DNA of 64,000 nucleotides from the NCBI GenBank assembly GCA_021651055.1, contig JAJHOH010000001.1:2046001-2110000 (forward strand), written 5' to 3'. Every line of letters starts with the position of its first letter. Position 1 is the first letter of the stretch. The position numbers were made by a program, and so were the translations under genes. The notes below the pieces were generated by a model. That model saw only the letters and a program-made list of their open reading frames with translations, was not told the DNA's origin and ran no database searches. This stretch comes from Candidatus Manganitrophus morganii. GTDB taxonomy: Bacteria; Nitrospirota; Nitrospiria; SBBL01; Manganitrophaceae. Below are positions 7,341 to 61,761 of this stretch, piece after piece.

Positions 7341-7453
7341 TTCGGACGGTTCTTTGTTCCCTCTGTGAAAATCCCCGCCTCCCTCCTTTTAGATCCCCTC
7401 CGATCCCAAAAGCAAGTTGCTTTCAGACCGGCTTGTCTGTATGATGGAAAACA

Positions 7454-8020: not shown

Positions 8021-8023
8021 CCG

Positions 8024-8728
8024 TTGGCCACGCCGAGCCTGGAAGAAAAGCGCGCCTGGGCGGAACAGTTCTTCGAAAAGACCGGGGCGAGTTACGATCA
8101 GGTGGTCGATCATACGACCTTCCGGATCGACCGGCTCTGGAAGAAAAAAATCATCTCCAAAATCCCTCCCTCCTCCCGAAAGATCCTCGATCTCGCCTGC
8201 GGCACCGGCATCCTCAGCTTCGCCATCGCCCAAAAATTTCCAAACGCGCAGATCGTCGGGGTCGATCTGACGAAGGGTTATCTCGACATCGCCCGGAAGA
8301 AAGCCGAAGCGAACCGCGCCGATGTCACCTTCGTCCATAGCCCCGCCGAAGCGTTCGTCTCCGACGATCGGTTCGACGCCTGCGTGACATCATACCTTCC
8401 CAAATACGCCGACCTCGATCTTCTGATTTCAAATCTCTCCCGAATGATCGCCCCCGGCGGCGTCCTCGTTTTTCATGACTTCACCTACCCAACGAATCGC
8501 TTCCTGCAATGGACCTTCGAAGCCTACTTCAAACTCCTCCCCCCGATCGGCGGCTGGCGCTGGCCGGAGTGGAAAGAGACCCTCTATGAGCTGCCGGTCG
8601 TCATCCGAAAAACGCGATGGATCGAGGAGCTGACCAAAGCGATGCGGCGGGAAGGCTTCGAAGAGATTCAAGTTGAATCGTTGACAATGCAGGGATCGGC
8701 ACTCGTCACCGCAAAGAAGAAACGATAA
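8024..8728 (+). CDS. Class I SAM-dependent methyltransferase (UbiE-like)
   Basis: This 234-residue enzyme has motif I ILDLACGTGILSFAIA (about residues 55-70), an acidic GVDLTKGYLDIA motif II, and a post-motif region MIAPGGVLVFHDFTYP. The pattern resembles UbiE/MenG C-methyltransferases, but the active-site context is not enough to assign quinone methylation. The start is a TTG three nt after pyrE, with AAAGGG as ribosome-binding site; there is no ATG in the N-terminal region. Co-transcription with pyrE looks incidental. Confidence 0.85.
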   Translation: MATPSLEEKRAWAEQFFEKTGASYDQVVDHTTFRIDRLWKKKIISKIPPSSRKILDLACGTGILSFAIAQKFPNAQIVGVDLTKGYLDIARKKAEANRADVTFVHSPAEAFVSDDRFDACVTSYLPKYADLDLLISNLSRMIAPGGVLVFHDFTYPTNRFLQWTFEAYFKLLPPIGGWRWPEWKETLYELPVVIRKTRWIEELTKAMRREGFEEIQVESLTMQGSALVTAKKKR

Positions 8729-8790
8729 ACCCCTTCACTCATCCGAACACCTCTTTCTAGTTGACCCTCCTTAATGTATTCCGATAATAT

Positions 8791-9291
8791 CTAGCGGTTG
8801 GCCCGTTGCATCAACATCTGCGGCTCGACGTTTTCAACATCGGCGATCTGCTCCAAGGCAGGGATGCGGGTCAGGGCGTCGGCGATCTCTCCCGAACGCG
8901 CCCGCAGCCAGGCCGCGTGTGGCGCGTATTCTAGGCGCTGCACGACCTCGTAACCGGCCTGCTCGATTGCCTGGAGACGATCTTCGACCGGCGCTCCTTC
9001 TTTGAAGCGGATGAAGACGCGCCCCGTCGGAACGGCGGGCGCGCCGCCCGGTGGCAGGGTATAGACCGGCCCGACCTGGCCGGGGGCATTTTTCTGCTGC
9101 TCCGCTTCACCCCGGAATATCTCGACGCGGTCTTCTCCTTCGCCCATCGAGAGGAGGGCGTCTTTGGAAGGCGGCCGGGGGCCGTGGACGGCGTAGCGGT
9201 CGGGCAAGCGGGTATAGACCGGAGAGGACGGTTGTATGCCGCTTCGAACCTCTTGGGGGAATTTGGAAAGGGGATTTTTCTCGGACGCCAT
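8791..9291 (-). CDS. Stand-alone subtilase-propeptide-like protein
   Basis: The 166-residue protein has no enzyme domain. Residues about 90-160 (VFIRFKEGAPVEDRLQAIEQ through YEVVQRLEYAPHAAWLRA and LEQIADVENVEPQ) resemble the prodomain of kexin-like S8 proteases. The same pattern is found inside the divergently encoded protease next door: FFVKFDGD, a short helix, VLEYARNAYFVAAP, then a HPE-type end. The N-terminal 80 residues are Pro-rich and probably disordered. No signal peptide is seen. It may be a separate inhibitor or folding helper for the protease, as known for I9-type propeptide inhibitors, but that is inference. Confidence 0.7.
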   Translation of the reverse strand: MASEKNPLSKFPQEVRSGIQPSSPVYTRLPDRYAVHGPRPPSKDALLSMGEGEDRVEIFRGEAEQQKNAPGQVGPVYTLPPGGAPAVPTGRVFIRFKEGAPVEDRLQAIEQAGYEVVQRLEYAPHAAWLRARSGEIADALTRIPALEQIADVENVEPQMLMQRANR

Positions 9292-9326
9292 CTCGACACC
9301 TGCAACGGAGAGGAATACGACAGTAC

Positions 9327-9392
9327 GTCATCCCCGCGAAAGCGGGGATCCAGAGATTTAGGTCACTGGATTCCCGCCTCCGCGGGAATGAC
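9327..9392. repeat. Palindromic REP/dRS3-like repeat pair
   Basis: GTCATCCCCGCGAAAGCGGGG at 9327 onward and, inverted, CCCGCCTCCGCGGGAATGAC ending at 9392 form head-to-head copies of the widespread ATTCCCGCGNAAGCGGGAAT dispersed repeat. It lies in the divergent gap between the propeptide-like gene and the protease gene. Confidence 0.8.
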
Positions 9393-9519
9393 ACCTAAAA
9401 GGAATCGAATTGGGTCACTACCAACGCCTACTTTTTGAATTTGGAGGCCTGATCGGTTTAGTATAGAGGATACGCGCCGCGCAATCAAAAGACAACCCAG
9501 ACGACAAGGAGGTCGATCG

Positions 9520-11508
9520 ATGTACTCGTTCCGATATGGTGGCAAGACCGGCAAACGATATTCTCTCACGACCAGCAACGAGCATCTCGTGGTCCGCACG
9601 ACCAACCGCGCCCCGGTGCTCGCCGCCCGGCCCTTCGAGGTGGCACCGGTTTCACCGGAGGCCCGCGCCCTTCTCGGCAACTTCGACCTGGCGGCCCGCT
9701 TTCGCGAGGCGGGGGTCGATGTTCTTCGCGCGAAGCCGACGCGCCGCGCCAAGAGCCTGCGCGACCGGGCCCGCGCGGTGTTGAAGCGCGAGCCGCAAAT
9801 CGAATTTGCCGGGCGGGTCCTCGTCGATCCGAAGGCGGGCCGGCCGGTCATTTATACCGAAAACTTCTTCGTCAAGTTCGACGGCGACGAAAGCGCCACC
9901 GCCTGCCGGAAGATCATTAAAAAACACCGCCTGGAGATCAAGCGGGTCCTCGAATATGCCCGCAACGCCTATTTCGTCGCCGCCCCCGAAGGGACCGGAC
10001 TGAAGATCTTCGACATCGCCGAGGCGCTGTTACAAGAATCATCCGTCCAATTCTGCCATCCCGAATTGATCCGCGAGGCGCGCCAGCGCGCCGCCTTTGC
10101 GCCGCAGTGGCACTTGAAGAAGACGAGCGTCGGCGGCCAGACGATCGACCAACACGCCCACGTCGAAGCGGCCTGGCCGTTGAGCGACGGGACCGGAACG
10201 ATCATCGCCGTCATCGATGACGGCGTCGATCTCGATCATCAGGAGTTCCGCTCCTCGGCCAAGATCGTCGCCCCCCGCGACGTGACCCGCAAGACGAACG
10301 ACCCGCGGCCGGGCAATGGCGACAATCACGGGACCGCCTGCGCCGGGGTGGCGTGCGCCGATGGAAACTTCGGCGCCTCGGGGGTCGCGCCAAGGGCGCG
10401 GCTGATGCCGATCCGCTTCGCCTCCAATCTCGGCTCGCAGGCGGAGGCCGACGCCTTCGTCTGGGCGGCGCAGAACAGCGCCGATGTGATCTCGTGCAGC
10501 TGGGGGCCGCCCGACGGCGATTTCACCAATCCGAACGATCCGGACCACCATCAGGTCGTGCCGCTCCCCGACAGCACCCGCCTGGCGATGGATTTCGCAA
10601 TCAAGAACGGCCGAAACGGAAAGGGGTGCGTGATCTGCTTCGCCGCCGGCAACGGCAACGAGAGCGTCAACAACGACGGCTACGCCAGCTACGAAAAAGT
10701 AATCGCCGTCGCCGCCTGCAACGACAAGGGAAAGAAAGCCCCTTACAGCGATTTCGGTCCCACCGTCTGGTGCGCCTTTCCGAGCAGCAATGTCTTCCCG
10801 TCGCTCACCCCCGGCATCTGGACGACCGACCGCTCCGGCCCCCTCGGCTACAATCATGGCAGCACCAGTCTCGGCGACGCCGCGGGCCATTATACCGACG
10901 ACTTCGGCGGGACCTCCAGCTCTTGTCCGGGGGTGGCCGGCGTGGCCGCGCTGATCCTGGCGCGCAACCCGAATCTCCGCTGGGATGAGGTGAAGGATGT
11001 GATCAAGCGCTCGTGTGATCGGATCGACACTTCCGGCGGGAAGTACGACGCCAACGGCCACAGCCATCTCTACGGCTACGGGCGGGTCAACGCCAAAAAG
11101 GCGGTGGAGCTGGCGATGCCGGCGCAGCCCGACACGGTCGCCATCCGGACGGTGGTGCGCGACGTCCCGATCCGGGATCTGCAGACCGCCCGGCTCGACC
11201 TGCCGGTCGCCGACACCGGATCGCTGAAAAAGATCAAAGTGACGGTCGACATCGAGCACACTTACATCGGCGATCTGATCGTCAGCATCAAACCGCCGAC
11301 GGCGACCGGCGTCTCCGCCATCCGGCTTCACAACCGGGAGGGGGGCGCAACCGACAACCTCAAGAAGACCTATGATGAGATCAATGCGCCCGGCCTGGTT
11401 GCGCTGAAAGGAAAAAGCCCGAAGGGCACCTGGACGCTCGTTGTGGAAGACAAGGCCCGTCTGGACACCGGGAAGATCCGGAGCTTTACGCTTGAAATGA
11501 CGCTTTGA
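9520..11508 (+). CDS. Kexin-like S8 serine protease with C-terminal P domain
   Basis: The 662-residue subtilase has catalytic Asp233 (IAVIDDGVD), His270 (GDNHGTACAG), oxyanion Asn378 (AAGNGN) and Ser466 (GGTSSSCPG). Residues 110-185 look like an internal propeptide. Residues about 540-662 form a proprotein-convertase P domain ending in LKGKSPKGTWTLVVEDKA and IRSFTLEMTL. There is no signal peptide; the N-terminal 100 residues are unusual and may be a targeting or regulatory module. GGAGG lies ahead of the ATG. The divergent neighbour encodes a propeptide-like protein, suggesting a protease-regulator pair. The long minus-strand open frame over it is a codon-bias shadow. Confidence 0.93.
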   Translation: MYSFRYGGKTGKRYSLTTSNEHLVVRTTNRAPVLAARPFEVAPVSPEARALLGNFDLAARFREAGVDVLRAKPTRRAKSLRDRARAVLKREPQIEFAGRVLVDPKAGRPVIYTENFFVKFDGDESATACRKIIKKHRLEIKRVLEYARNAYFVAAPEGTGLKIFDIAEALLQESSVQFCHPELIREARQRAAFAPQWHLKKTSVGGQTIDQHAHVEAAWPLSDGTGTIIAVIDDGVDLDHQEFRSSAKIVAPRDVTRKTNDPRPGNGDNHGTACAGVACADGNFGASGVAPRARLMPIRFASNLGSQAEADAFVWAAQNSADVISCSWGPPDGDFTNPNDPDHHQVVPLPDSTRLAMDFAIKNGRNGKGCVICFAAGNGNESVNNDGYASYEKVIAVAACNDKGKKAPYSDFGPTVWCAFPSSNVFPSLTPGIWTTDRSGPLGYNHGSTSLGDAAGHYTDDFGGTSSSCPGVAGVAALILARNPNLRWDEVKDVIKRSCDRIDTSGGKYDANGHSHLYGYGRVNAKKAVELAMPAQPDTVAIRTVVRDVPIRDLQTARLDLPVADTGSLKKIKVTVDIEHTYIGDLIVSIKPPTATGVSAIRLHNREGGATDNLKKTYDEINAPGLVALKGKSPKGTWTLVVEDKARLDTGKIRSFTLEMTL

Positions 11509-11674
11509 TGGGGTGAAGTGTGCCGTCCCACGGCAAGAATGACATTTGTTGATTCCTTCTTCATGTCTGCTGATCTTCATCTTAATTCATGAGGCATAGC
11601 GGCGTTTTGACAAGGGGGACAGACCGTGTTAATGTGGTCTTAATTCTAGTCAACCTAAATTGGAGATCATCTTT

Positions 11675-11935
11675 ATGAAAACCTTGTCGCTCTCGGAGGC
11701 GAAGATGAAGTTGAGCGGCCTGATCGAAAAAATCAGCGCCACCGACGAGGAGATCGTCATCACCAAGAACGGCCGCGCGGCCGCCGTGCTGGTCAGCGCG
11801 GACGAATATGAGAGTTGGAAAGAGACAATGGCGGTCCGTTCCGACTCGGCCCTGATGGATGAGATCAAGAAAGGGCTTCGGGCATTAAAGGAAAAAAGGG
11901 CCAAGATCTATACTCTGGATGAATTGGTCGGATAA
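11675..11935 (+). CDS. Phd/YefM family antitoxin
   Basis: The 86-residue protein starts MKTLSLSEAKMKLSGLIEKI and continues EEIVITKNGRAAAVLVSADEYESW, the usual Phd/YefM fold that binds DNA and folds over its toxin. The ATG at 11675 has GGAG nine nt upstream and gives the standard N-terminus; an ATG at 11660 would add five residues. It is followed after 20 nt by a RelE/ParE-type toxin gene, the usual antitoxin-first order. The pair should autorepress its own promoter. Confidence 0.92.
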   Translation: MKTLSLSEAKMKLSGLIEKISATDEEIVITKNGRAAAVLVSADEYESWKETMAVRSDSALMDEIKKGLRALKEKRAKIYTLDELVG

Positions 11936-11955
11936 TCGTTTGCGGCGGGCGTCTC

Positions 11956-12234
11956 TTGTATCAGCTTCGAATTCCGAATGATGTCGTCAAATTGATTCGG
12001 GGAATGCATCCGCATCTTAAAAAAAAGATCCGGAGATCCCTACAGACGATCCTGTCCGATCCTCTTTCCGGAAAGGCGCTGAAAGAGCCGTTGGAGGGAT
12101 TAAGAAGTTTTCGAGTGAGTCGCTTCAGGATTATTTACAGGATTTCGGATAAAAAGGTGGTGGACATCATTGCGATCGGTCCTCGAGAGCGAATTTACGA
12201 AGAGACCTTCCGAATCTTAAGCAGAGAAAAATAA
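11956..12234 (+). CDS. RelE/ParE family toxin
   Basis: This 92-residue protein shows the RelE/ParE superfamily pattern: VVKLIRGMHPHLKKKIRRSL in the N-terminal helices, LKEPLEGLRSFRVSRFRIIYRI in the sheet, and VVDIIAIGPRERIYEE near the end. RelE members cleave mRNA in the ribosome and ParE members block gyrase; the basic Arg-rich sheet favours the RelE side, but this is not decisive. The start appears to be TTG at 11956, since no ATG or GTG exists in the preceding in-frame stretch. It pairs with the upstream Phd/YefM gene. Confidence 0.9.
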   Translation: MYQLRIPNDVVKLIRGMHPHLKKKIRRSLQTILSDPLSGKALKEPLEGLRSFRVSRFRIIYRISDKKVVDIIAIGPRERIYEETFRILSREK

Positions 12235-12540
12235 ACATAGTGTCACCACGATGCCGGTTCGCCATTTCCCATTAAAGCCGGGAAATCCCGGACACGCCTA
12301 TTTTCGGGGAAATTTAGAATTTGTATCCCTCTCCCGAGATGATCGAACATCCAGAACGGTTTCCTTTAAAAGCAGGTGGTAAATAGCCCGGTAGTATTAA
12401 ATAATCCTGAATTAAGTATGGTGTCCCCGGAATTCCAGGGCTAGAGTGCCAACCTCGGTTCCTTTTCTGGTTGACTATCATTATGGCATTCGATAACATC
12501 TCGTCGGTATCTATTAACTCATTCTGAATGTTAAGTAGCA
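12235..12540. other. 306-bp gap with decayed mobile-element-like ends
   Basis: No gene is seen. The stretch has two short motifs often found at ends of IS200-like/REP-associated tyrosine transposase units: GGACACGCCTATTTTCGGGG near 12290 and GAATTAAGTATGGTGTCCCC near 12410. They are not joined by any transposase frame, so this looks like a decayed remnant between the toxin-antitoxin pair and the AT-richer caspase-like gene. The family assignment rests on memory of the motif, not a search. Confidence 0.4.
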
Positions 12541-14058
12541 ATGAATATCGCGATTCTAATTGGTGTGTCCCAGTACAAGGTGGCTGCGCCTCTTCCGGCC
12601 TGCGCAGCAGATGTGGAGCAAATGCGCCGATTGCTTACGGCGACGAATAAATATGATGACATTTGTTGCTTAACAGCACAAACCAGTTCTGGTCCGCTAA
12701 AAGAAGCACTCCGAGGCTTTTTCGCTAAGTACCAATCGGGTGCTGAAATTGGTGAAGCCTTAATATATTTTTCTGGTCACGGTGTTTATCATGCTGATGC
12801 ATTGTTCTGCTGTTCTGACTTTGACCCGAATCGTCCCGCTACAACGTCAATTAGCAACGAGGAACTCGACGACTTACTGCGTAGTGTCAAACCCATCGTA
12901 GCTGTCAAAGTTATTGATGCATGCCAATCCGGTTCACCCTACATTAAAGATGCTAGTGCAGGCTTTGAAAAAGCTTTGCGGACAAGTCGTCTTAGTTCAT
13001 TCATTTGCATGGCCTCTAGCAGACAGGACCAGTCATCCTATGCTAGTGTCAATGCTAGCGCGTTCACAGCCAAGTGGATCGATGCAGCACTCGATAAGCA
13101 GAGTGGGACCGTACTGTATCGAGATATTCAGGCTGTGCTCGCCGATGCTTTTGTTAATAACCCTGATCAAACCCCCTTTTTCGTCACCCAAGGAACTGGA
13201 TTAGAGATCTTCGCTGCAGTCACTGAAGAAATGCGGAAGATCGTAACGGAACGCTCCAAATCTTCGACGGTGGCAACACCTCAAGATACGGTTGTAGATG
13301 TGATCTCAGCAGAAGTCGCTCGCCTTGACAATGCTTATGTCTCATTGGAGGAAGCGTGTCGTGCTATCGAGCAAGCAGGTCAAGATCTTGCCTCTGAACC
13401 AATTAGTGACCCGCTCGTTTCACATTTTTATGAAAAGCGGATATCTCAAGATGGCAAACTCGTAACCCTTCCTCGCATACGGGCTGTAGCCAATTTTGCC
13501 GCAGAACAAGGATGGGCCAAGAAGTATTTTGTGAGAGTCATTCAAGAACAGTATCGTGAAAGAGTACCGAAAGAACCATTTAAGGTTTGGGGAGCAGGTA
13601 TTTTGAGCACCCATCTGGCATCCAACTTAGGAGACGAAGATTATGTGCTCCAAACTCGCTCTCGTCCCGGTCGCCTTGAATCTACGCAGACGCTTCCGTT
13701 TGAAGTTGCAGAAGTCGTTTTTGAAGCAAAAAAGCACCCCGCTCTCAAAGCTTTTTCTTTATATATTGGGATAGTTCACTCATTAACGGAAGTAATGGTC
13801 CTTTCTGCTATCGTACAATTTATACAAATAGGGTGGTCCGAAAGGTCTCCCCAACTGTCCGACGTTCAGTGGAAGTACCAAAGTTTCCCTTGGAAAGATG
13901 TGGTGTCGCAACCGAAGTTACTCTGGCAGGAGGTACTTGACCGGAGCCAGGATACTATTAAGGCTTACCTAGAAGGGTTAATTCCAAAAAAAGAAGATTC
14001 GCAGGCGAAAGTATCCACGAATGATCAAAAGACTTCACCTCACCAGCAAAAGGCGTAA
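12541..14058 (+). CDS. Orphan caspase-like (peptidase C14) protein
   Basis: The N-terminal ~220 residues are a caspase/metacaspase fold: MNIAILIGVSQY start, catalytic His80 in YFSGHGVY and Cys128 in VIDACQSG. Residues ~245-505 match no family I recognise; they contain a helical middle (about 260-300) and a hydrophobic stretch near 410-435. Codon usage and base composition are visibly AT-richer than flanking genes, a sign of transfer. Bacterial caspase-like proteases often act as effectors in anti-phage or suicide systems, coupled to a sensor domain; the C-terminal part could be that sensor. No partner gene is adjacent, so this may be a single-gene system. No strong ribosome-binding site is seen. 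Confidence 0.85.
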   Translation: MNIAILIGVSQYKVAAPLPACAADVEQMRRLLTATNKYDDICCLTAQTSSGPLKEALRGFFAKYQSGAEIGEALIYFSGHGVYHADALFCCSDFDPNRPATTSISNEELDDLLRSVKPIVAVKVIDACQSGSPYIKDASAGFEKALRTSRLSSFICMASSRQDQSSYASVNASAFTAKWIDAALDKQSGTVLYRDIQAVLADAFVNNPDQTPFFVTQGTGLEIFAAVTEEMRKIVTERSKSSTVATPQDTVVDVISAEVARLDNAYVSLEEACRAIEQAGQDLASEPISDPLVSHFYEKRISQDGKLVTLPRIRAVANFAAEQGWAKKYFVRVIQEQYRERVPKEPFKVWGAGILSTHLASNLGDEDYVLQTRSRPGRLESTQTLPFEVAEVVFEAKKHPALKAFSLYIGIVHSLTEVMVLSAIVQFIQIGWSERSPQLSDVQWKYQSFPWKDVVSQPKLLWQEVLDRSQDTIKAYLEGLIPKKEDSQAKVSTNDQKTSPHQQKA

Positions 14059-14106
14059 CTTTCAACTAAAATTGTTACTTGGTTTGATATTCTGCCCTGA
14101 AGCCTT

Positions 14107-14832
14107 ATGGCGACATCCATGAAATCCCGCTGGCTCCTTCTCGTCTCAACTGCCCTCGCCTTCATGACGGCGGTGCTCCTGCTCGAACGCCCCGGCGTGG
14201 TCGCGCAGGTCGGCCTGGGCCTGGCGACGGCAACCTTCCTCTGGTTCTTCGTGCGATGGGCCGAGCTCGATCCGCGCCAGATCCTCACCACCATCGCCAT
14301 CGCCACGACCGGCGAGGTGGTCCTTTCGATCGGGTGGGGCCTCTACGACTACAAACACACCCTCATCCCGCTCTACGTCCCGCCGGGCCATGCCGTCTTC
14401 TACGCGTTGGCGGTGGTGACCGCCCGCGAGCAAAGCCTCCAAAAACACGCCGCCGCCATCACCCGGACCGTCCTCCTTTTGGGAACGGTTTACGCCGCCG
14501 CCAGCTTTCTCTTCTTCAACGACACGTGGGGGATGCTCTGGTGGGGGGTGGCGTTCGTCCTCTTCCTGAAATCGGAGAACCCGCTGCTTCTCTCAGCCTG
14601 CGCCGTCTACACGATCCTGTTGGAGTGGGTCGGCACCGCCATCGGCAACTGGTATTGGTTGCCGGAGGTGCCGTATCTTTCCATCAGCTCGGCGAACCCG
14701 CCCGCGGGGGTCACCGTTCTCTACATCGTCCTCGACCTCCTGGTGGTCACCGCCTGCGGATGGCTTTGGCGGAACTCCGAAAAAGCGGACCCCTCACCGG
14801 TTCCGAGCCTCAATATTGTAGAAGAACGATAG
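14107..14832 (+). CDS. Multi-pass membrane protein of unknown function
   Basis: The 241-residue protein is very hydrophobic, with about seven likely membrane helices spread from residue 9 to 220. Conserved-looking polar spots are ELDPRQ (about 53), GWGLYDYKHT (about 76) and YVPPGHAVFYALAV (about 90). The YVPPGHA motif and TAIGNWYW near residue 180 should help identify homologues. I do not recognise the family. It returns to the GC-rich composition of the core genome, unlike the preceding caspase-like gene. The start could also be the ATG four codons later at 14119. Confidence 0.75.
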   Translation: MATSMKSRWLLLVSTALAFMTAVLLLERPGVVAQVGLGLATATFLWFFVRWAELDPRQILTTIAIATTGEVVLSIGWGLYDYKHTLIPLYVPPGHAVFYALAVVTAREQSLQKHAAAITRTVLLLGTVYAAASFLFFNDTWGMLWWGVAFVLFLKSENPLLLSACAVYTILLEWVGTAIGNWYWLPEVPYLSISSANPPAGVTVLYIVLDLLVVTACGWLWRNSEKADPSPVPSLNIVEER

Positions 14833-14935
14833 AGGATGACGCGTAAAAGAAAATAGAATTGTTGCAATCTCTTTCTTGCCGCCAGAGCCTCTATAAAAAC
14901 TCGAGCTATCCCTCTGCGCATCTTCTAAATACATA

Positions 14936-14963
14936 TTGACTTGATAGAACGCGTCTATATAAT
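14936..14963 (+). promoter_or_regulatory. Strong sigma-70 promoter of pyrF
   Basis: TTGACT (14936-14941), a 16-nt spacer and a perfect TATAAT (14958-14963). The predicted transcript starts about 30 nt ahead of the pyrF start codon. Confidence 0.75.
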
Positions 14964-15001
14964 ATGGCCCTAAAACTGAATCCGGCTTATGCGAGTTTAG
15001 G

Positions 15002-15763
15002 TTGAAAGAGAGCACGCTCCTGCCCCACCAAAGAATTATTTTCGCGCTGGACTACCCCTCCTTCGAAGAAGCGCGTCCCTTTATAGAAGCCTTAAAAGAT
15101 AAGATCGGTTTATTTAAGATCGGGTGGACGCTGCTTTTAAGCGAGGGCCTGAATGTCTTGGCCAAAATAGAAGGGATCGAAGGGGTCTCCGCCAAGTTTT
15201 TTTTGGACATCAAATATTCGAGCCGGTCGGTCGAAGATATCCCGCAGCAAGTCGGCGGCATGGCTTCCGTCATCACGTCTAAAACGAGAGGGGTCGAATT
15301 TATCACCGTCCACACGTACGAAGGCGAAGCCCTTGTGGGAGAGGCGGTTAAAAAATTCAAGACAAAAGGAACGAAGATCCTCGGCGTGACGGTGTTGACG
15401 AGCGTGAACCAAGAAAGTTCCAATATCACACCCCAACAAAGAGTATTGGAGTTGGCTCAAATCGCAAAAAAGGCCGGTTGCGACGGGGTCGTTTGCTCCG
15501 GACATGAAGCCGGAGCAGTCAAAGAAAAAATGGGCCGGGATTTTATTGTTGTCACGCCGGGCATCCGCCCTGTATGGGCCGAGATCAAGAAAGACGATCA
15601 AAAAAGAATCGTGACTCCGGGAAATGCAATTAGAAATGGAGCGGATTATATTGTGGTCGGCAGACCGATTTCCACTGCAAAAGACCCCGCCGAAGCAGCG
15701 AGCAGGGCCGAGAAGATCGCCGAAGAGATCGCCGTCGCGCGAAGAGAAATGACCGCCCTTTAA
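15002..15763 (+). CDS. pyrF: Orotidine-5'-phosphate decarboxylase
   Basis: PyrF makes UMP from OMP. The 253-residue sequence has IIFALDYPS at the N-terminus, FKIGWTLL, the catalytic region FFLDIKYSSRSVEDIP, GCDGVVCSG, VTPGIRP and GADYIVVGRPI, the whole barrel series. The catalytic DXK...D motif is oddly spaced: the usual D-x-K-x-x-D is stretched by several residues (SSRSVE) between Lys and the second Asp. The start is a TTG at 15002, downstream of a strong promoter; the nearby ATG at 14989 is out of frame. It stands alone, away from pyrE. Confidence 0.92.
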   Translation: MKESTLLPHQRIIFALDYPSFEEARPFIEALKDKIGLFKIGWTLLLSEGLNVLAKIEGIEGVSAKFFLDIKYSSRSVEDIPQQVGGMASVITSKTRGVEFITVHTYEGEALVGEAVKKFKTKGTKILGVTVLTSVNQESSNITPQQRVLELAQIAKKAGCDGVVCSGHEAGAVKEKMGRDFIVVTPGIRPVWAEIKKDDQKRIVTPGNAIRNGADYIVVGRPISTAKDPAEAASRAEKIAEEIAVARREMTAL

Positions 15764-54308: not shown

Positions 54309-54385
54309 TGATTTCGTGTATGAGGTCATCGGAAATACCAGCAGCAGGCTTGGCCTGTCCGAGCATTTATAGAACAAGCGAGCAT

Positions 54386-54448
54386 CCGGCTTTGCCGGTG
54401 CAAGCGTTCGGGGCGTGGGGGCATCGGAGGATTCCCGCGAAGCGGGAA
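54386..54448. repeat. Two short palindromes between smpB and ssrA
   Basis: CCGGCTTTGCCGG at 54386-54398 and TTCCCGCGAAGCGGGAA at 54432-54448. The second has the same core as the dispersed repeat at 9327-9392. No gene lies in this 164-bp gap. Confidence 0.6.
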
Positions 54449-54472
54449 CCGCACGGGCCCCCACATACAATA

Positions 54473-54819
54473 GGGGGCGATCGGATTCGACGGGGATAAA
54501 GAGGTTAAGGAACGCATGCCGAGGTCCCATTGGGCTCGTTAAACAAATGGGAAAAACATAATTGCTAATGAACAATTAGCTCTCGCTGCCTAAACGCAGT
54601 GACATCGACTTTCCGTCGCCTGTGCGGGGGGAAGATGCCAGATAGCAGGCTGGCCTGACTCTTCGCCTTGGGGAGTTGGGTGAGATCTTTCGAGGCTAGC
54701 GGAAGAGGGAGCCTGTCTCTGGGCGACCTTGGACGCGAACTCCAAAATAGAGACTAAGCATGTAGTGTTCTTTTTCTGAATATCTTCGGACGCGGGTTCA
54801 ATTCCCGCCGCCTCCACCA
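54473..54819 (+). ncRNA. ssrA: Transfer-messenger RNA (tmRNA)
   Basis: The 347-nt RNA starts GGGGGCGATCGGATTCGACG and ends in a tRNA-like TGGTTCAA-type arm (GGGTTCAATTCCCGCC) and CCTCCACCA with an encoded CCA. The 5' GGGGGCG pairs with 3' CGCCTCC to form the acceptor stem. The tag frame begins at GCT 54564 and ends at TAA 54591-54593, reading A-N-E-Q-L-A-L-A-A. It rescues stalled ribosomes with SmpB and marks proteins for proteolysis. The AT-richer gene block starts right after its 3' end, a common integration site. Confidence 0.97.
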
Positions 54820-54824
54820 ATTTG

Positions 54825-54857
54825 AAGAGCCCGGGTAACTGGGCTTTTCCTTTTTTA
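54825..54857 (+). terminator. Terminator of ssrA
   Basis: AGAGCCC and GGGCTTTT pair around GGGTAACT, followed by CCTTTTTT, just behind the tmRNA 3' end. Confidence 0.75.
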
Positions 54858-54931
54858 GGAAGCCCCGCCCGCTCCTCCTCCCGACTCAATCACGGAACTC
54901 CGGCCAGTCTGATCGGTGGGTGGTGACGTCA

Positions 54932-54960
54932 TTGACTTCCTTCAGATCCTCGTTTAAAGT
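54932..54960 (+). promoter_or_regulatory. Candidate promoter of the PurZ-like operon
   Basis: TTGACT (54932-54937), 17-nt spacer, TAAAGT (54955-54960), with the first gene beginning about 36 nt downstream. A second weak -10-like GATAAT is at 54966-54971. Confidence 0.4.
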
Positions 54961-54995
54961 GTCCCGATAATATCACCAACAGTTATATTTTTTGT

Positions 54996-56708
54996 TTGAC
55001 AGAAAGGCCAAAATCCCGCTATTCTTCCCTTAACAAACACCCGGTTGGATTAAGCCTGTTCCAGTCAATTTGGCTCAGAGGGAACTTGGCTGTTGAGAAA
55101 GAAATAATTCATTCCAAGGGAGCACTCCCTACCCTCGATTCTATCCTCCCCCGAACATTTGTCCATGTTCCTGGGATTGGTCCCATAAAAGAAAAGTCTC
55201 TCTGGAAAGACGGGATCACCTCCTGGCAACAATATCTTAATCTCTCCAGACAAATGGAATTTTCTTTTCGCCTTCCAAACACGACGTATGACCTCATCGC
55301 GCAATCAGAAGAAGCCCTGAAAAAAGAAGATGCGGAATTTTTCAGAGACCACCTTCCGCGTGAAGAATGGTGGAGGCTGTTTCCGCATTTTGAGTCACGA
55401 ACAGTGTTTCTGGATATCGAAACCACTGGTCTGTCCCACTACTATGATGAGATTACGCTTTTGGGTTTGTATGGCGGTGAATCCAATAAGATGCGGGTGT
55501 TCCTGTCCGGACACAATCTCGATCAGATTTCGGACATATTGAGTCGCTATTCTATTGTGGTCACTTTTAACGGAACTCTTTTTGACCTTCCCTTTCTGAA
55601 AACGAAATTTCCGTCGCTAAGACTCCCTCCAATTCACTTAGATCTTCGTTACATACTTAAGCGGTTAGGATATGCAGGAGGGTTAAAACAAATTGAAGAA
55701 ACACTAGGACTGCAACGCAGTAAGAAGATTTCTTCAATTGATGGTCTTGGTGCGACCGTGCTCTGGGCACGTTATGTCAGAGGCGAGATCCAAGCGCTAG
55801 AACACCTCATTCGCTACAATGCGGCGGACATTACGAGTTTGCAGACACTATTACGGTTTAGCTATAAGCAGTTGGCAGCCCGTCTTTTAAATGGTGCGAG
55901 TAGCCAACCCTTCCAACCGCGTTTGCAGCGTCCAAAGAAAGTCTATATTCAAGTAAAAAGGGTCAATGGCTCGCGTGTTCAGATCGTGGTTGACCGTGTA
56001 AAGACCCTTCTAAAATTTAAAAAAATAGAGAAGCCGCTAATCACCGTTAATGATCTTTTGAAGAAGATATCTGGTAGTAAGAATCTTATGCCCAGAGCGA
56101 TTGGAATTGACCTGCGAGCGTCCGAAATCCGCCCGACGGGTTGGGCCTTGCTTGATGGTAATACTGCGGACACGAAGCTGGTTAGAACAGATGAACAGAT
56201 TATTACCGAGACAGTTCGCTATCACCCCGATATCATCTCGATTGATTCTCCCCTGAGTTTGCCGACGGGACGTTGTTGCACAAAAGACTCGTGCAAGTGC
56301 CGAGAAAAAGGTATTTTGAGGGAGTGCGAGCGGACACTCTGGAGAAGAGGAGTCAGAGTCTTTCCATGTCTATTACCTAGCATGCAGGGTCTCACTGAAC
56401 GCGGGATACGTCTTGCTGAAAAATTCAGAAAGCTCGGTTACAATGTTATTGAGAGCTATCCGGGGGCAGCCCAGGATATCATGAGGATCCCAAGAAAGAA
56501 ATTAAGCTTAGGCGATCTAGGGTTGGGATTGAGCGCTTTCGGCATCGAAGGGGATTTTCTTTCGAAGGAAGCAAGCCATGATGAGTTGGATGCGATTACA
56601 TCGGCCGTTGTCGGCTACTTCTACCTCTCAGGAGACTACGAGGCGCTTGGAAATGATTCTGAAGAATACTTGATCATCCCAAAACTAGACCGATCTTTAT
56701 CCCAGTAG
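54996..56708 (+). CDS. Fusion of YprB-type DEDDy exonuclease and DUF429 RNase H-like domain
   Basis: The 570-residue protein joins two nuclease folds. Residues about 50-290: helix-hairpin-like FVHVPGIGPIKEKSLWKDGI, then a DEDDy exonuclease with D140 and E142 (FLDIETTGL), D197 (FNGTLFDLPF) and Y274/D278 (YNAADITSL), as in YprB. Residues about 366-550: DUF429 predicted RNase H-like domain with D372 (AIGIDLRAS), D417 (SIDSPLSLP), E486 (ESYPG) and HDELDA (528-533). A Cys cluster C427, C428, C433, C435 may bind zinc. The start is probably TTG 54996 but is not certain. It is 16 nt ahead of the PurZ-like gene. AT-richer than the flanks. Confidence 0.85.
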   Translation: MTERPKSRYSSLNKHPVGLSLFQSIWLRGNLAVEKEIIHSKGALPTLDSILPRTFVHVPGIGPIKEKSLWKDGITSWQQYLNLSRQMEFSFRLPNTTYDLIAQSEEALKKEDAEFFRDHLPREEWWRLFPHFESRTVFLDIETTGLSHYYDEITLLGLYGGESNKMRVFLSGHNLDQISDILSRYSIVVTFNGTLFDLPFLKTKFPSLRLPPIHLDLRYILKRLGYAGGLKQIEETLGLQRSKKISSIDGLGATVLWARYVRGEIQALEHLIRYNAADITSLQTLLRFSYKQLAARLLNGASSQPFQPRLQRPKKVYIQVKRVNGSRVQIVVDRVKTLLKFKKIEKPLITVNDLLKKISGSKNLMPRAIGIDLRASEIRPTGWALLDGNTADTKLVRTDEQIITETVRYHPDIISIDSPLSLPTGRCCTKDSCKCREKGILRECERTLWRRGVRVFPCLLPSMQGLTERGIRLAEKFRKLGYNVIESYPGAAQDIMRIPRKKLSLGDLGLGLSAFGIEGDFLSKEASHDELDAITSAVVGYFYLSGDYEALGNDSEEYLIIPKLDRSLSQ

Positions 56709-56724
56709 CTCTGTTCAGGAATCC

Positions 56725-57756
56725 ATGCCTCTTACGGTTGTAGTTGGCGGACAATTCGGTTCCGAAGGCAAGGGGAAGATCGTTTCCTACCTTGCCCTGC
56801 GGGACAATGTAGACATTGTAGTCCGTTGTGGTGGACCCAACTCAGGCCATACCGTCGATTATCGCGGACAGCGATACGAGCTTCGAAGCCTGCCAGCCGG
56901 GTTTATCAATCAACGAACCCGTCTTCTCCTTGCTGCAGGTTCACTCATCAATCCTGAGATTCTACTGACCGAAATAAAAATTGCGGGGATTGATCCTCAA
57001 AGGGTGGGGGTCGATCGAAACGCAGGGATCATCTCCTCTCTCCAAAGCGAAGAAGAACGGTCACTCTCTCTGAGAGATCGGCTGGGATCAACTTTGTCCG
57101 GAACCGGAAGCGGCGTTGCGAACCGTGCGCTCAGAAAACCTGATTTTAAGCTGGCGAAGGACAGTCTAGAATTACAGGGTTTCCTAACAGATGTTTCAGA
57201 AGAGGTGAACGGCGCGCTAGATAGGGATGGGAAGGTTATCATTGAAGGTACACAGGGTTTTGGCCTGTCGGTGTACCACTCATCGCATTATCCTTATGCG
57301 ACCAGTCGCGATACTACTGCAAGCGGGTTTCTAAGTGAAGTAGGTGTTAGTCCCCGGCTCGTTACCGATATTATAATGGCAGTTCGGACCTATCCAATCC
57401 GCGTGGCAGGTAATTCAGGACCTCTGGCCAAGGAGGTCACATGGGAAGAAATTCAGAGAAGAAGCGGTTACCCTACGGAAATCAAGGAGTATACGACAAC
57501 CACTAAAAAACTCCGGCGAGTGGGACTTTTTGACATAGAACAAGTAAAAAGAGCGGCAAGAGTTAATCGGCCGACCCAAATTGCACTGCATGGAGCAGAT
57601 TACCTATCATATACAAACAAATCAAAGACAGAACTTGATAACCTATGCATAGAAAGTCAAAAGTTTATCGCATTCGTGGAGAGAGAGACTAAGACACATG
57701 TGAGTTTTATTGGTACGGGCCCGGCCAACGAAGAGATTATAGATCTAACACTATGA
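56725..57756 (+). CDS. PurZ-like adenylosuccinate synthetase homologue
   Basis: The 343-residue protein is a PurA-fold GTPase/ligase but about 90 residues shorter than PurA (~430). Family motifs: VVVGGQFGSEGKGKIVSYLA (8-17 region), GGPNSGHTV with His42, SGTGSGVANRALR, EGTQGFGLSV with HYPYATSRDTT, and KKLRRVGLFD. The catalytic Asp of PurA (GDEGKG) is Ser13 (GSEGKG), the change I associate with phage PurZ, which makes N6-succino-2-amino-dAMP from dGMP for 2-aminoadenine DNA. Residues and length thus favour a PurZ or PurZ0-like enzyme over housekeeping purA. It overlaps the next gene by ATGA. Substrate is inferred only. Confidence 0.82.
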   Translation: MPLTVVVGGQFGSEGKGKIVSYLALRDNVDIVVRCGGPNSGHTVDYRGQRYELRSLPAGFINQRTRLLLAAGSLINPEILLTEIKIAGIDPQRVGVDRNAGIISSLQSEEERSLSLRDRLGSTLSGTGSGVANRALRKPDFKLAKDSLELQGFLTDVSEEVNGALDRDGKVIIEGTQGFGLSVYHSSHYPYATSRDTTASGFLSEVGVSPRLVTDIIMAVRTYPIRVAGNSGPLAKEVTWEEIQRRSGYPTEIKEYTTTTKKLRRVGLFDIEQVKRAARVNRPTQIALHGADYLSYTNKSKTELDNLCIESQKFIAFVERETKTHVSFIGTGPANEEIIDLTL

Positions 57757-58790
57757 GTCAACCAAGAAATATACTTCCAGATAGTTATAAACAACCAGCG
57801 CCAACCGTATCAGAGAAGGATTTTTGGGTAGATCCAGATCCAAAATCCACGGGGCTTTTACTTTCAGATCGAATAATATTTTATCGAGAGAAAGTGAATT
57901 TGATTCATCCTTTCGATCTCAATTATGTCGAGCCTGCATCATATACGCTTCATGCGGGGGGAGAGTATCTAATCTATACCGAGGGGAAAAAAAGAGTATC
58001 GGGAATTTTAGACGAAGGTAAATTAGAAATTGAGATACCTCCAAATGGATTAATCTATATTCGGTTTATGGAATATGTGAATATACCAGCCTATATGATT
58101 GCGAGATTTAATTTACGAGTTAAACAAGTTTACCGAGGGCTACTTTTAGGAACTGGTCCTCAAGTGGAGCCCGGCTTTAGAGGGCATCTTGGCTGTCCTA
58201 TTCATAATTTTACAGATGAGGCAAAAACTATTAGGTTTTTTGAACCCATCGTTACGATTGATTTTGAGAAAACTACCCCTTTTGGCGAAAATTTCTTTAG
58301 CGGTAAAAAGGATGAGGAATTAACTAACGAGATGTTTCAGCGAATACCCCGTGGTATGATCACAGTTACCGGGCTAAACGACCTTCCTTGCAAAGTCTTT
58401 ACGAAGAATAGTCCAGATAGATCGCTTCAAAATTACTTGCCGCCTGGAGAGAGTGTTCGCAGCTCCGTGTTCGAATTAGAACAAACTGTCAGGAGGGTCA
58501 AAGAGACTGTTCGTCGGTTCGAGATTATAATTTCAATTGGTGCCCTTGCCCTACTTGTCGCCATGGCTGGACTTTTCTTTAATGCTTATTCAAATTTAAA
58601 GAATGACATTGTTACGTTAAGTAAGTCGGTTGGAATTCTGGAAGGAGCAGCAGGGGCGGCACGAACGAACTCATCCGCAGCAGTTCAGCCTAATACCCAA
58701 GTTGCATCGCCAACTTCTCCACCAGCAAAAAGCCAGCAATCCTCTCCACCACTCCGGGATAACACCTCAACTACTGAAAGTCCGAAGTAA
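57753..58790 (+). CDS. Membrane-anchored dCTP deaminase/dUTPase-fold protein, probably inactive
   Basis: Residues about 40-175 follow the DCD/dUTPase fold: NYVEPASYTLHAGGEYL, PPNGLIYIRFMEYVNIPAYMIARF, then PQVEPGFRGHLGCPIHNFT. In active DCD the last segment carries the catalytic Glu (..LEFYN/LELSN); here that position is Pro149 (GCPIHN), so deamination is unlikely. Residues 232-255 look coiled-coil, a membrane helix covers about 257-278 (EIIISIGALALLVAMAGLFF), and the tail is Pro/Ser/Thr-rich. It may be a nucleotide sensor fixed to the membrane. ATGA overlap with the PurZ-like gene shows coupled translation. Confidence 0.82.
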   Translation: MSQPRNILPDSYKQPAPTVSEKDFWVDPDPKSTGLLLSDRIIFYREKVNLIHPFDLNYVEPASYTLHAGGEYLIYTEGKKRVSGILDEGKLEIEIPPNGLIYIRFMEYVNIPAYMIARFNLRVKQVYRGLLLGTGPQVEPGFRGHLGCPIHNFTDEAKTIRFFEPIVTIDFEKTTPFGENFFSGKKDEELTNEMFQRIPRGMITVTGLNDLPCKVFTKNSPDRSLQNYLPPGESVRSSVFELEQTVRRVKETVRRFEIIISIGALALLVAMAGLFFNAYSNLKNDIVTLSKSVGILEGAAGAARTNSSAAVQPNTQVASPTSPPAKSQQSSPPLRDNTSTTESPK

Positions 58791-58804
58791 CTTAATAAAA
58801 CATA

Positions 58805-59431
58805 ATGATTAGAGACATAGAAAAACTAAATACTTATAGATTTCTATCCATTGAAGGTTGTATGGGTTCAGGTAAGACAACTCTTGCAAAACATTTAGCG
58901 GATGCCATTTTAGCTAGCCCGCTCATTGAAGAGAGCGGTCGTCATCCTTTCATCAAAGAGTTCTATGTGGCGCCTGAATCTTATGCAGTTGAAACCGAGA
59001 TTGCTTTTGTTCTGCTGCACTACCATCAAATTCTTCGAGAGAAGCGGGCTGGACTATTCAATGGGACAGTCGTGAGTGACTTTGCTATGGACAGAGATTA
59101 TATATTTTCAACCCTTACCCTAAAAGATCCCGCGGATTGGGAACTGTTCGAAAACACATATAATGTTTTGAAGAAACGGCTTCCTATTCCCGATATACTA
59201 ATTTATCTTAGGGCGCCAGTGGATTTTTTAGCAAAGCGGATAGCACAACGCGGAAGGGATTATGAGAAAATTATGACGCGAAGCTATCTTGAAGCGGTAA
59301 AGACAGCCCTCGACAATTACTTTCTCAAAGAATATAAGGGGAAGATCATTATTCTTGATGCCCCGGACCTGGACAGTTCTGTTAATCCCACCTACGTTGA
59401 TACAGTCATCAAGCAGTTACATATAAGTTAA
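58805..59431 (+). CDS. Deoxynucleoside kinase (dGK/dAK-type)
   Basis: The 208-residue protein has the P-loop SIEGCMGSGKTTLAKHLA (Gly18-Thr25), a conserved FYVAPESY-type segment, SDFAMDRDYIF in place of the DRS/ERS motif, and the lid RIAQRGRDYEKI. The pattern and size match the deoxyadenosine/deoxyguanosine kinases of the dNK family. It would make dNMPs from deoxynucleosides, possibly feeding or recycling the product or substrate of the PurZ-like enzyme. It starts 14 nt after the preceding gene and ends the operon. Confidence 0.85.
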   Translation: MIRDIEKLNTYRFLSIEGCMGSGKTTLAKHLADAILASPLIEESGRHPFIKEFYVAPESYAVETEIAFVLLHYHQILREKRAGLFNGTVVSDFAMDRDYIFSTLTLKDPADWELFENTYNVLKKRLPIPDILIYLRAPVDFLAKRIAQRGRDYEKIMTRSYLEAVKTALDNYFLKEYKGKIIILDAPDLDSSVNPTYVDTVIKQLHIS

Positions 59432-59444
59432 CAACTCAGTTGCG

Positions 59445-60842
59445 TTATCCTGCTCCAGCCCTACGGATTTGATCAGGGCTAATTACTAAACGACCGTTTT
59501 TTCGTTCAGTGTAGGGGATTTTATCCTGCTCTAGTCCAAACCACCCGTACAATTCTGAGATAAGGTCAAATGCCACAATACCTGGGTCTAAGTCGGTGCT
59601 CCTTTTCGTAATGGTCACTTGAGAATCCGGAGCGTTGCGGATATCCGTTCCGAATTCCCACCCAAATGTGCCTATCGGACCTGGGATAAGCCCACAAGGC
59701 ATCCCATCTCGTGTCATGTTAAGTAACTCCAGTCGATATTCAATGCTTTGGGGATGCGGCTGAGCGTTTGCTGAAACCTGCCTGTTCAGTTCAGCAAATA
59801 AATATGTAGATTCAGCCAGGACAAGAGGATTAATACGAAGCGCACCGCGAGGCCTTCCCCAGCTTAAGAATTCCTCATCTCCTCGGGTGGCAAAGATGAG
59901 CGTTCCATTTCGCCACAGATCAAGAATTCGATATTTAGGATTTACCGCTCGTCTAAGTTGACCCCTTACGATCTTTGGTGTCTCACCGATAGTCAAATCG
60001 AATCCGCTTGGTCTCAGTTCCGGCGGATTTTTAAGTAAACGCACAATCTCCGCATCACTTGCCTGAAAGAGCGTTGGTATATCGACTGCTTCGATAGGTG
60101 TTGCCGCAAGGATGAAAATTGGTTGCGTCTGGAGGTCTACTGCAATCAGTGCTTCATTTCTTCGATCGTCTAATAATTCTTGTATATTCTGTTGAAGAGT
60201 AATATTTGCTTTCTGAGACTGGCCCGCCATAAGCTGCTGTAGTGTTTCTTGAATTTCGTTATATTTCTTGTCTAGGGAGTCAAACCGGAGACCATCCCTT
60301 ATTAAGGAATGTAGTTCTTGAACTGACGTCGGCGGTATATTGTCTCGCCTGCGTTCGACATAACCAAATACGATTTCGATTTGCTTGCCCCTGCTATCAA
60401 TGGTTCGGGTTATCAAGAAAGGGCGTCTGGTGGAGGCTTGAGAGGGAACATGAATAGCAACGACTCCCTTCTCTTTATCGGCACCGGAGGGAAACCAGCG
60501 AATATCAACCTGCTGCAAAGGTGGATAGATCCAAGACTGGAGGATTTTATGGTATTGGTCTTGGTTCACTAAGCTCTGTATAAAAGGATTGACCGTTGTA
60601 ATTTCATCTCCAAGGTGCGTAGGATGCCGCTCTGTCTTAACCCCTAAGAGAACAAAACCTCCATCGGCGTTCGCAAGTCCGGATATATCCTTGGCAAACT
60701 CTTGTTTCTGATGATCTTGTCCAATCTGATAGGGTGCGTCTTTACATTCCAGTTGTGCATCCTCTACAGTTCCAATAAATTTATTAAAATCACCAGAATC
60801 CAAAAGAGACCGGATCTCATTTAAACTGAGATTTTTAGGCAT
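59445..60842 (-). CDS. AlbA_2/Schlafen-type ATP-binding domain protein
   Basis: The 465-residue protein has an N-terminal AlbA_2 (Schlafen-like) domain with QLECKDA (about 30), EFAKDISGLANADGGFVLLGV (49-69 region) and an acidic/basic middle. The C-terminal ~280 residues match nothing I recognise and may sense a target. AlbA_2 domains occur in transcription regulators and in several anti-phage systems. It is convergent with the PurZ-like operon, 13 nt from the dNK stop, and has the same AT-richer composition. AAAGGAA is upstream of the ATG. Whether it belongs to the operon's function is unknown. Confidence 0.82.
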   Translation of the reverse strand: MPKNLSLNEIRSLLDSGDFNKFIGTVEDAQLECKDAPYQIGQDHQKQEFAKDISGLANADGGFVLLGVKTERHPTHLGDEITTVNPFIQSLVNQDQYHKILQSWIYPPLQQVDIRWFPSGADKEKGVVAIHVPSQASTRRPFLITRTIDSRGKQIEIVFGYVERRRDNIPPTSVQELHSLIRDGLRFDSLDKKYNEIQETLQQLMAGQSQKANITLQQNIQELLDDRRNEALIAVDLQTQPIFILAATPIEAVDIPTLFQASDAEIVRLLKNPPELRPSGFDLTIGETPKIVRGQLRRAVNPKYRILDLWRNGTLIFATRGDEEFLSWGRPRGALRINPLVLAESTYLFAELNRQVSANAQPHPQSIEYRLELLNMTRDGMPCGLIPGPIGTFGWEFGTDIRNAPDSQVTITKRSTDLDPGIVAFDLISELYGWFGLEQDKIPYTERKNGRLVISPDQIRRAGAG

Positions 60843-60893
60843 CGATAATTTCCTTTGGTTTAGACTTTGTTACCGCCTTAATGCTGATCGCCG

Positions 60894-61418
60894 CTATAGG
60901 CTGGCGGTCGTCTGGTGCCGGATCGGACGGAACAGGGCCTTATCAAGACCCGATTCAAAATCCAGCAGCGCCCGTTTCCGATCGAGGCCGCCGGCGTATC
61001 CGGTGAGGGCCCCGTCGCGGCCGACGACCCGATGGCAGGGGACGATCAGCGAAATCGGATTGCGTCCTGTCGCCGCGCCGACGGCGCGCATGCTCGATGG
61101 CGCGCCGATCCGGGCTGCCAGCACCGAGTAGCTTTGCGTCGCGCCGAACGGAATCGCCGCGATTGCCTGCCAGACCCGGAGTTGAAAGGGGGTTCCTTTG
61201 AACCGGATCGGCAGATTAAACGTTTTCAGTTTTCCCGAGGTGTAGGCGGCGATCTGGGCCTCGGCGTCGCGAAACAGTGGGAGTCCCGGATCTCGCTTCC
61301 AAGGGGTTGCGTCCGGGGCATACTTCTGACCGACGAAATAGAAGCCGGTGAGTACAGCGCCGTCCGAGACCAACAGGATCGGCCCCAGCGGCGAATCAAT
61401 ATCGGTATAGAGGTTCAT
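60894..61418 (-). CDS. ogt: Methylated-DNA--protein-cysteine methyltransferase
   Basis: The 174-residue protein removes alkyl groups from O6-methylguanine onto its own Cys. The active site is LIVPCHRVVGRDGALTGYAGG, and RVWQAIAAIPFGATQSY marks the DNA-binding helix region. Length and arrangement are of the Ogt/Ada C-terminal type. The ATG at 61418 follows AGGGG; a slightly earlier ATG would overlap the preceding cupin gene. It marks the return to GC-rich core sequence after the AT-richer block. Confidence 0.93.
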   Translation of the reverse strand: MNLYTDIDSPLGPILLVSDGAVLTGFYFVGQKYAPDATPWKRDPGLPLFRDAEAQIAAYTSGKLKTFNLPIRFKGTPFQLRVWQAIAAIPFGATQSYSVLAARIGAPSSMRAVGAATGRNPISLIVPCHRVVGRDGALTGYAGGLDRKRALLDFESGLDKALFRPIRHQTTASL

Positions 61419-61419
61419 C

Positions 61420-61761
61420 TCAATCCCCTGACTCAATACAAGTGACCCCGTCCGGTCCGACGATCGCTCCGTGACGAGTGCCAGGGGGAAGGGTCAGACG
61501 GTCGCCGGGGCGGAGCGCGATATCCTGGTTCAGGTCGGGAAGGGAAAAGATGATGCTCCCCTTCACGCAGAAGAGGGTCTTCTGATAGTTGTGGGTGTGG
61601 ACGGAGTAAACCTCGCCCGGTCCGTTCGACCATCGGCTGGGAGCGAGATCGCGGCTTTCGAAGAAGGCGACGATCTCCGACTCCGGCAGCGGATGTTTGT
61701 GCGGCCAGCGGAGGACCTCCACCCCTTTGGGAAGGGCTTCGTGATAAGAAGGGTGAGACAT
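61420..61761 (-). CDS. Small cupin-domain protein
   Basis: The 113-residue protein is one cupin barrel: motif 1 PGEVYSVHTHNYQKTLFCVKG with the His-X-His pair, then motif 2 LRPGDRLTLPPGTRHGAIVG with a third His. The His/Glu set can bind a metal ion. The substrate is unknown; stand-alone cupins vary widely in role. It lies 8 nt after the AbrB-like gene and just ahead of ogt, so the three are probably co-transcribed. Confidence 0.85.
   Translation of the reverse strand: MSHPSYHEALPKGVEVLRWPHKHPLPESEIVAFFESRDLAPSRWSNGPGEVYSVHTHNYQKTLFCVKGSIIFSLPDLNQDIALRPGDRLTLPPGTRHGAIVGPDGVTCIESGD

Follow-up and report, generated by a model that had tools for sequence, protein, structure and literature searches.

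The stretch of DNA analysed here, hereafter the window, is a 64-kb segment of the genome of Candidatus Manganitrophus morganii. Just beyond the tmRNA gene it holds an acquired island with four consecutive genes on one strand, in the order HhH-exonuclease-DUF429 protein, PurZ, DCD-like protein with a transmembrane (TM) helix, and deoxynucleoside kinase (dNK), which we call the cassette. The features are:

54473–54819, + strand: tmRNA gene (ssrA), found by ARAGORN; the island begins just past its 3' end
54824–60940, no strand: acquired island of ~6.1 kb, GC 38–51% against ~60% around it, with empty sites in relatives
54996–56708, + strand: EXO-DUF429 protein, with an HhH region, a DnaQ-like exonuclease and a DUF429 RNase H-fold domain (Pfam, structural model, motifs)
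56725–57756, + strand: PurZ-clade adenylosuccinate synthetase homologue with GSEGKG (Pfam, NCBIfam, PHROGs, PDB, tree, residues)
57753–58790, + strand: DCD/dUTPase-fold protein with Pro for the deaminase Glu and a C-terminal TM helix (Pfam DCD, 9.2e-8)
58805–59431, + strand: deoxynucleoside kinase (Pfam dNK, 1.8e-22)
59445–60842, − strand: SLFN_AlbA_2-domain protein, in the island (Pfam, 2.6e-6)
60894–61436, − strand: MGMT gene of the right flank, its last codons in island sequence

Comparison within the genus establishes that this DNA was gained. Homology to four same-genus genomes (L185–L188) ends at 54823–54848, just beyond the tmRNA; in three of them 47–72 bp separate the tmRNA from the MGMT homology, in the fourth 27 bp separate it from cupin homology, and the island genes are absent from all four. 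These empty sites indicate that ~6.1 kb carrying the EXO-DUF429, PurZ, DCD-like, dNK and AlbA_2 genes was inserted after the tmRNA. Flanking att repeats were looked for and none was found, and the island contains neither phage genes nor an integrase. The AlbA_2 gene is not conserved with the cassette, being found at no other locus. In a census of the organism's own phylum, a PurZ gene was present in 2 of 245 genomes, the second of which has the nuclease, PurZ and DCD-like genes in the same order as the window. tRNA genes were considered as a general insertion site for the family and rejected, since they lie near only 10 of 54 loci. The right edge of the island falls inside the MGMT gene (60894–60940), the last dozen or so codons of which differ from those of the relatives.

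The PurZ gene is an open reading frame of 343 amino acids with an ATG start. As the first-pass annotation had noted, residues 12–17 of its translation read G-S-E-G-K-G and His42 is kept (within GPNSGH42), and the assignment to the PurA fold agrees with the Pfam match (Adenylsucc_synt, E=2.6e-53) and with the PDB matches. The highest-scoring of the latter are archaeal PurA structures (5k7x/2d7u, 243 bits), with the PurZ0 structure 7vf6 at 156 bits and phage PurZ lower in the ranking. The top NCBIfam model is likewise archaeal PurA, at 356 bits against a cut-off of 368, and the phage PurZ model NF038379 gives 236 bits against a curated cut-off of 300, so the protein passes neither model; PHROGs groups it with phage 2-aminoadenylosuccinate synthetase. 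The shortened length that had drawn attention is real by comparison with bacterial PurA, but archaeal-type PurA proteins are 333–341 residues long (20 fetched examples), which makes 343 residues nothing special. A shortened or degenerate PurA is accordingly rejected, since archaeal-type PurA is of comparable length and the remaining catalytic residues that were inspected are intact. The genome, a single 4.29 Mb contig, encodes elsewhere a separate full-length housekeeping PurA (621 bits) as well as its own Dcd and PurB. The window protein is thus not the sole PurA of its genome, and it has neither Asp13 nor a position among PurA in the tree.

Two phylogenies were built, a quick tree of 106 rows and a more careful one of 83 rows (IQ-TREE, 1000 bootstraps). 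The window PurZ lies inside a clade of 65 rows with Ser or Gly at position 13, with support of 100/100 in the IQ-TREE analysis and 99 in the quick tree. Besides the window protein and its cellular relatives, this clade takes in viral sequences from IMG/VR and the two phage groups, PurZ (100/99) and PurZ0; archaeal PurA (100/98) and bacterial PurA (100/100) fall outside it in the 83-row tree. A position among housekeeping PurA, which would have refuted the first-pass reading, was thus not what the tree gave. In both trees it stands outside the phage PurZ and PurZ0 clades, with the PurZ0 phages forming a separate clade; its sister is a protein from a Nitrospira MAG (75% identity, support 100/99). 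Capture of a phage PurZ or PurZ0 gene is rejected on the tree together with the gene context. The branches nearby hold members of different phyla and domains, a pattern that horizontal transfer would produce. The IMG/VR contigs L010–L015 carry a distinct viral PurZ branch of ~300 amino acids, which sits within the broad cellular clade and not with phage PurZ or PurZ0.

Three sequence differences separate this clade from PurA. At position 13, the fetched relatives with their N-terminus present have Ser in 74 of 78, Gly in 4 (L032, L033, L035 and L036) and Asp in none; within one alignment, Ser or Gly occurs in all 80 S-clade rows and Asp in all 26 PurA. With Ser or Gly in 78/78 relatives and Asp in every PurA control, the Ser is not a product of chance or a sequencing artefact. 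An insertion follows Val227 in the Ser clade (PIRV-AGNSGP, against PTRVG-AGP in PurA) and is absent from 26/26 PurA. Finally, the T-G-R303 of PurA is replaced by T-K-x in nearly all members, T-K-K in the window protein. Asp292, which aligns with Asp333 of E. coli, a residue of guanine recognition, is kept in the window PurZ, in PurZ0 and in PurA, and is Asn or Gln in 5/5 ATP-type phage PurZ. In the PurZ of phage S-2L, which has the same three changes, the Ser lies next to the dGMP 2-amino group, the loop insertion draws the conserved Val toward the ribose C2', and the contact that Arg303 makes close to the 2'-OH is missing, features which that study connects with selection of dGMP (PMC8342488). 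The reaction expected of the window enzyme from these residues would use dGMP, aspartate and GTP. Sequence evidence gives good support to the dGMP step, and the kept Asp292 predicts GTP use of the PurZ0 type; for dGMP use, GTP use and the subsequent PurB step alike, we infer from knowledge of the family. We consider it very probable that the protein is a dGMP-using enzyme of the PurZ type. The earlier suggestion of such an enzyme is therefore supported by tree and residues, with the qualification that the protein belongs to neither phage clade.

Set against its characterized relatives, the window protein resembles the PurZ0 of the Gordonia/Arthrobacter Z-phages (PDB 7vf6) in the Ser, the AGNSGP loop, the Asp for the guanine nucleotide, the lost TGR and the 100/100 clade, and differs in being only 37–38% identical and in lying in a separate clade. 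The partners also differ: those of phage PurZ0 are DutZ, DmtZ and DpoZ, whereas those in the window are a nuclease-DUF429 protein, a DCD-like TM protein and a dNK, with nothing beyond the dUTPase fold in common between DutZ and the DCD-like protein. Phage PurZ of S-2L and phiVC8 (PDB 7odx, 6fm1) shares the Ser, the insertion after the conserved Val and TKx for TGR, but has lost the guanine-specific Asp (N/Q) that the window PurZ keeps, and has DatZ and MazZ adjacent. Archaeal-type short PurA (5k7x) matches the window protein in length and fold and gives the top whole-length score, but has Asp13, no loop insertion and an intact TGR, and forms a separate clade. The accessible text of one report describes four archaeal sequences with Ser or Gly that are basal to phage PurZ (PMC12884076). 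These sequences, matched here by description and not by accession, probably belong to the same cellular family; that text presents them without the cassette or the bacterial spread, both of which are described here.

The nucleotide-related neighbours reported in the first-pass annotation are confirmed by Pfam and family searches. The EXO-DUF429 protein matches RNase_H_2 (1.4e-31) and, just under the cut-off, DUF429 (8e-4); the DEDD exonuclease motif (in RNase_H_2 versions) and the acidic motifs of DUF429 are conserved over ~60 homologues. Its AlphaFold model (pLDDT 87.6, pTM 0.85) resembles NrnC and polymerase exonuclease domains in Foldseek, with residues 1–42 at low confidence and the true start uncertain. 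The DCD-like gene has an ATG that overlaps the PurZ stop, and its product has a TM helix at about residues 258–276 followed by a long C-terminal helix, the TM helix being present in 58/62 homologues. The Glu that marks an active dCTP deaminase (in a DPGWxGxxxLE-type motif) is Pro in all 62 homologues; the genome's own Dcd, taken as a control, keeps it. The model matches a dUTPase (8y1w) with TMt 0.81 in Foldseek, and the nearest structures are DCD-family dUTPases, which likewise do without that Glu. Deamination is thus unlikely and diphosphatase activity possible, and the idea that a dead DCD proves a pure sensor is weakened, because the DCD-family dUTPases leave hydrolysis open to the protein. 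The kinase has PDB matches to a dNK (8puu, 3.7e-11) and to deoxyguanosine kinase (2jas, 1.3e-6), a resemblance by which it could feed dGMP to PurZ.

The chromosomal setting of PurZ, singled out as notable in the first-pass annotation, proves to be more than a curiosity, since the gene is part of a recurrent cellular cassette. Across 84,980 species genomes up to 301 PurZ relatives were detected, an upper figure for the family in that the best 80 of the 301 were fetched and inspected. Those 80 come from Nitrospirota, Chloroflexota, Bacillota, Acidobacteriota, Planctomycetota, Verrucomicrobiota, Pseudomonadota, Cyanobacteriota, Actinomycetota, Patescibacteria, Lokiarchaeota, Halobacteria, Methanosarcinales, Nanoarchaeota and others, a broad but patchy distribution, sporadic in both bacteria and archaea; Ser-clade relatives occur on plasmids as well, conjugative plasmids included. 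Gene order was counted over the 57 loci whose flanks extend at least 2.6 kb to either side. PurZ is immediately preceded by the nuclease-DUF429 gene, on the same strand, in 41 of them and immediately followed by the DCD-like gene in 39; counted at any position, the two genes are found at 45 and 49 loci, respectively. The dNK is present in 14/57 and a family of ~254 amino acids, F254, in 16/57, never both together. F254 carries the motif MQNRYxGDxGDFxKYxLLR ... DPDNG (for example L082:9042–9779 on the − strand and L030:9956–10756 on the + strand, with ~14 other loci) and has no Pfam match and no convincing PDB or PADLOC match.

The cassette also varies in its domains. Longer versions of the nuclease end in a P-loop kinase-like domain, some have HhH+PHP in place of the DnaQ-like exonuclease (L054-like), and PurZ bears an N-terminal P-loop kinase fusion in L101, L103 and two Rhizobiales plasmids. 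A PurB homologue adjoins the cassette in the Lokiarchaeota locus L031 and in L036, matching the expected next step after PurZ. Among 50,697 phage records none matched the EXO protein, and scanning viral contigs did not reveal it either; PurZ itself occurs in both. Neither the phage Z-genome cluster (DatZ/MazZ or DutZ/DmtZ with a Z-polymerase by PurZ) nor the DNA polymerase, DatZ, MazZ and dUTPase of phage PurZ loci were found among the window neighbours. The failure to find EXO in the phage sets and the absence of phage-type neighbours together mark the cassette as a cellular module. Our search of databases and open papers, with subscription papers and most preprints outside its scope, found no description of it.

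For the function of the cassette we hypothesize a role in defence, with a task for each partner, and put at about an even chance the reading that a cellular, GTP-dependent PurZ acting on dGMP belongs to an acquired four-gene system directed against phages or mobile elements. The window PurZ would ligate aspartate to dGMP in a GTP-dependent step, and its product, N6-succino-2-amino-dAMP, would be converted to dZMP by the housekeeping PurB. The dNK, or the kinase domain fused elsewhere to the nuclease or PurZ, could supply dGMP or phosphorylate the product, the membrane-anchored DCD/dUTPase-fold protein may bind or hydrolyse a deoxynucleotide, and the exonuclease-DUF429 protein may act on nucleic acid; Z nucleotides made from the dGMP that builds up in infection would then serve as an alarm signal or a poison. 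Mobility, patchy spread and the nuclease, kinase and nucleotide-binding fusions suit an anti-phage module. A modified purine dNTP as an immune messenger has a precedent in the dITP of Kongming (PMC12948488). The likeness to Kongming is by analogy only, in the idea that infection leads to production of a modified purine deoxynucleotide; the base and the enzymes differ, and no KomA/B/C homologue was seen with the cassette. Defence genes near some loci include Gabija (L193), BilD (L191), an AbiJ-like PADLOC candidate (L194), type I/IIG restriction-modification (R-M) and MADS. This neighbourhood is anecdotal, being uncorrected by control genes, and among the 122 flanking proteins searched with PADLOC and Pfam, R-M and resolvase genes are mixed with many housekeeping genes; in the window itself only the AlbA_2 gene adjoins the cassette. 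No known system modelled in PADLOC-DB 2023 matches PurZ or the DCD-like protein, the only matches being weak ones to P-loop and DUF429. Counting against defence, an exonuclease with DUF429 also suits DNA repair or nucleotide sanitation.

That alternative, in which PurZ clears excess or damaged dGMP-like nucleotides, the DCD-like protein and the dNK deal with other deoxynucleotides and the exonuclease removes damaged DNA, we regard as unlikely. It draws on the likeness of the exonuclease domain to the repair exonuclease MrfB (weak, E=0.012), on the exchange of that domain for a PolX-like HhH+PHP editing unit in some versions, and on dUTPases being the closest structures to the DCD-like protein. 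A core repair function is, however, ill matched to so patchy a distribution, to the island form and to plasmid carriage; PurZ makes a new base and removes none, and the membrane anchor of the DCD-like proteins is left unexplained. Improbable, in our judgement, is a cassette that puts Z into the DNA of the host or of a resident mobile element: ordinary polymerases do incorporate the dZTP produced by datZ-mazZ-purZ in E. coli, but expression of the Z cluster is toxic (PMC8342488). Moreover, DatZ, MazZ, DmtZ/DutZ and a polymerase are absent from the window cassette, and none of them emerged among the genes conserved around the cellular loci.

The other explanations concern where the enzyme came from or what small pathway it serves. 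PurA paralogues do act in nucleoside-antibiotic pathways, and a toyocamycin-like cluster with a PurA/PurB pair is present on a Rhizobium plasmid, but its ToyG-like protein keeps the Asp (GDEAKG) and the PurA loop and lies outside the Ser clade, by which a ToyG-type enzyme was rejected, and no further genes for biosynthesis or export are present in the cassette; a pathway to a product of the 2-amino-deoxyadenosine type is quite improbable. It is very improbable that the gene is a Z-phage remnant, brought in as phage PurZ with a prophage. The island does sit at the tmRNA 3' end, where phages often integrate, and the PurZ of some viral contigs falls in the same broad clade, but the island is without phage genes, integrase or flanking att repeat, the nuclease partner was not found in the phage collections, and the window PurZ is outside the phage clades. 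Least probable of all is an ordinary PurA duplicate using IMP: archaeal PurA supplies the best single PDB match and the top NCBIfam model, but the tree, the three differences common to PurZ and the complete PurA elsewhere in the genome stand against it.

Metabolism of Z (2-aminoadenine) is known as a phage trait. The clade described above contains a deep and diverse cellular PurZ lineage of which the phage enzymes are two branches, making the origin of Z genomes testable, and it suggests that some cells may produce dZ nucleotides while having no Z genome. Should the cassette prove to be a defence system, it would represent a new class of nucleotide-based immunity, with the route from dGMP through dSMP to dZMP as a handle. 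We offer more tentatively, and with some doubt, the broader proposal of an undescribed immune system, widespread among prokaryotes, whose signal or poison is the Z nucleotides made by PurZ and whose partners are the nuclease-DUF429 protein and a membrane DCD-fold sensor; phage PurZ, PurZ0 and Z-DNA genomes would then be derived from the cellular family.

Several further observations were made at individual loci. On a Sinorhizobium plasmid (L191:8001–11943), PurZ and a protein of ~340 amino acids adjoin a homologue of BilD, of an ISG15-like defence system. Kinase-PurZ fusions are encoded at L193:7449–9050 and L194:7443–9056, the former with a Gabija pair and an integrase nearby. The Rhizobium leguminosarum conjugative plasmid L192 carries at 7375–15715 a complete-looking cluster of the toyocamycin/sangivamycin type, with FolE, PurA-like, PurB, QueE, QueC, QueD, IMPDH-like, nitrile hydratase and phosphoribosyltransferase genes. 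In a branch from Omnitrophota, Planctomycetota, Verrucomicrobiota and Acidobacteriota, a large AAA+ protein (600–870 amino acids, weakly IetA-like) directly follows PurZ and replaces the DCD-like gene (L061, L051, L057 and L062). In the window, the interval between smpB and the tmRNA (54376–54470) contains a dispersed repeat of ~50–95 bp with many partly matching copies, which is also present in five same-genus genomes.
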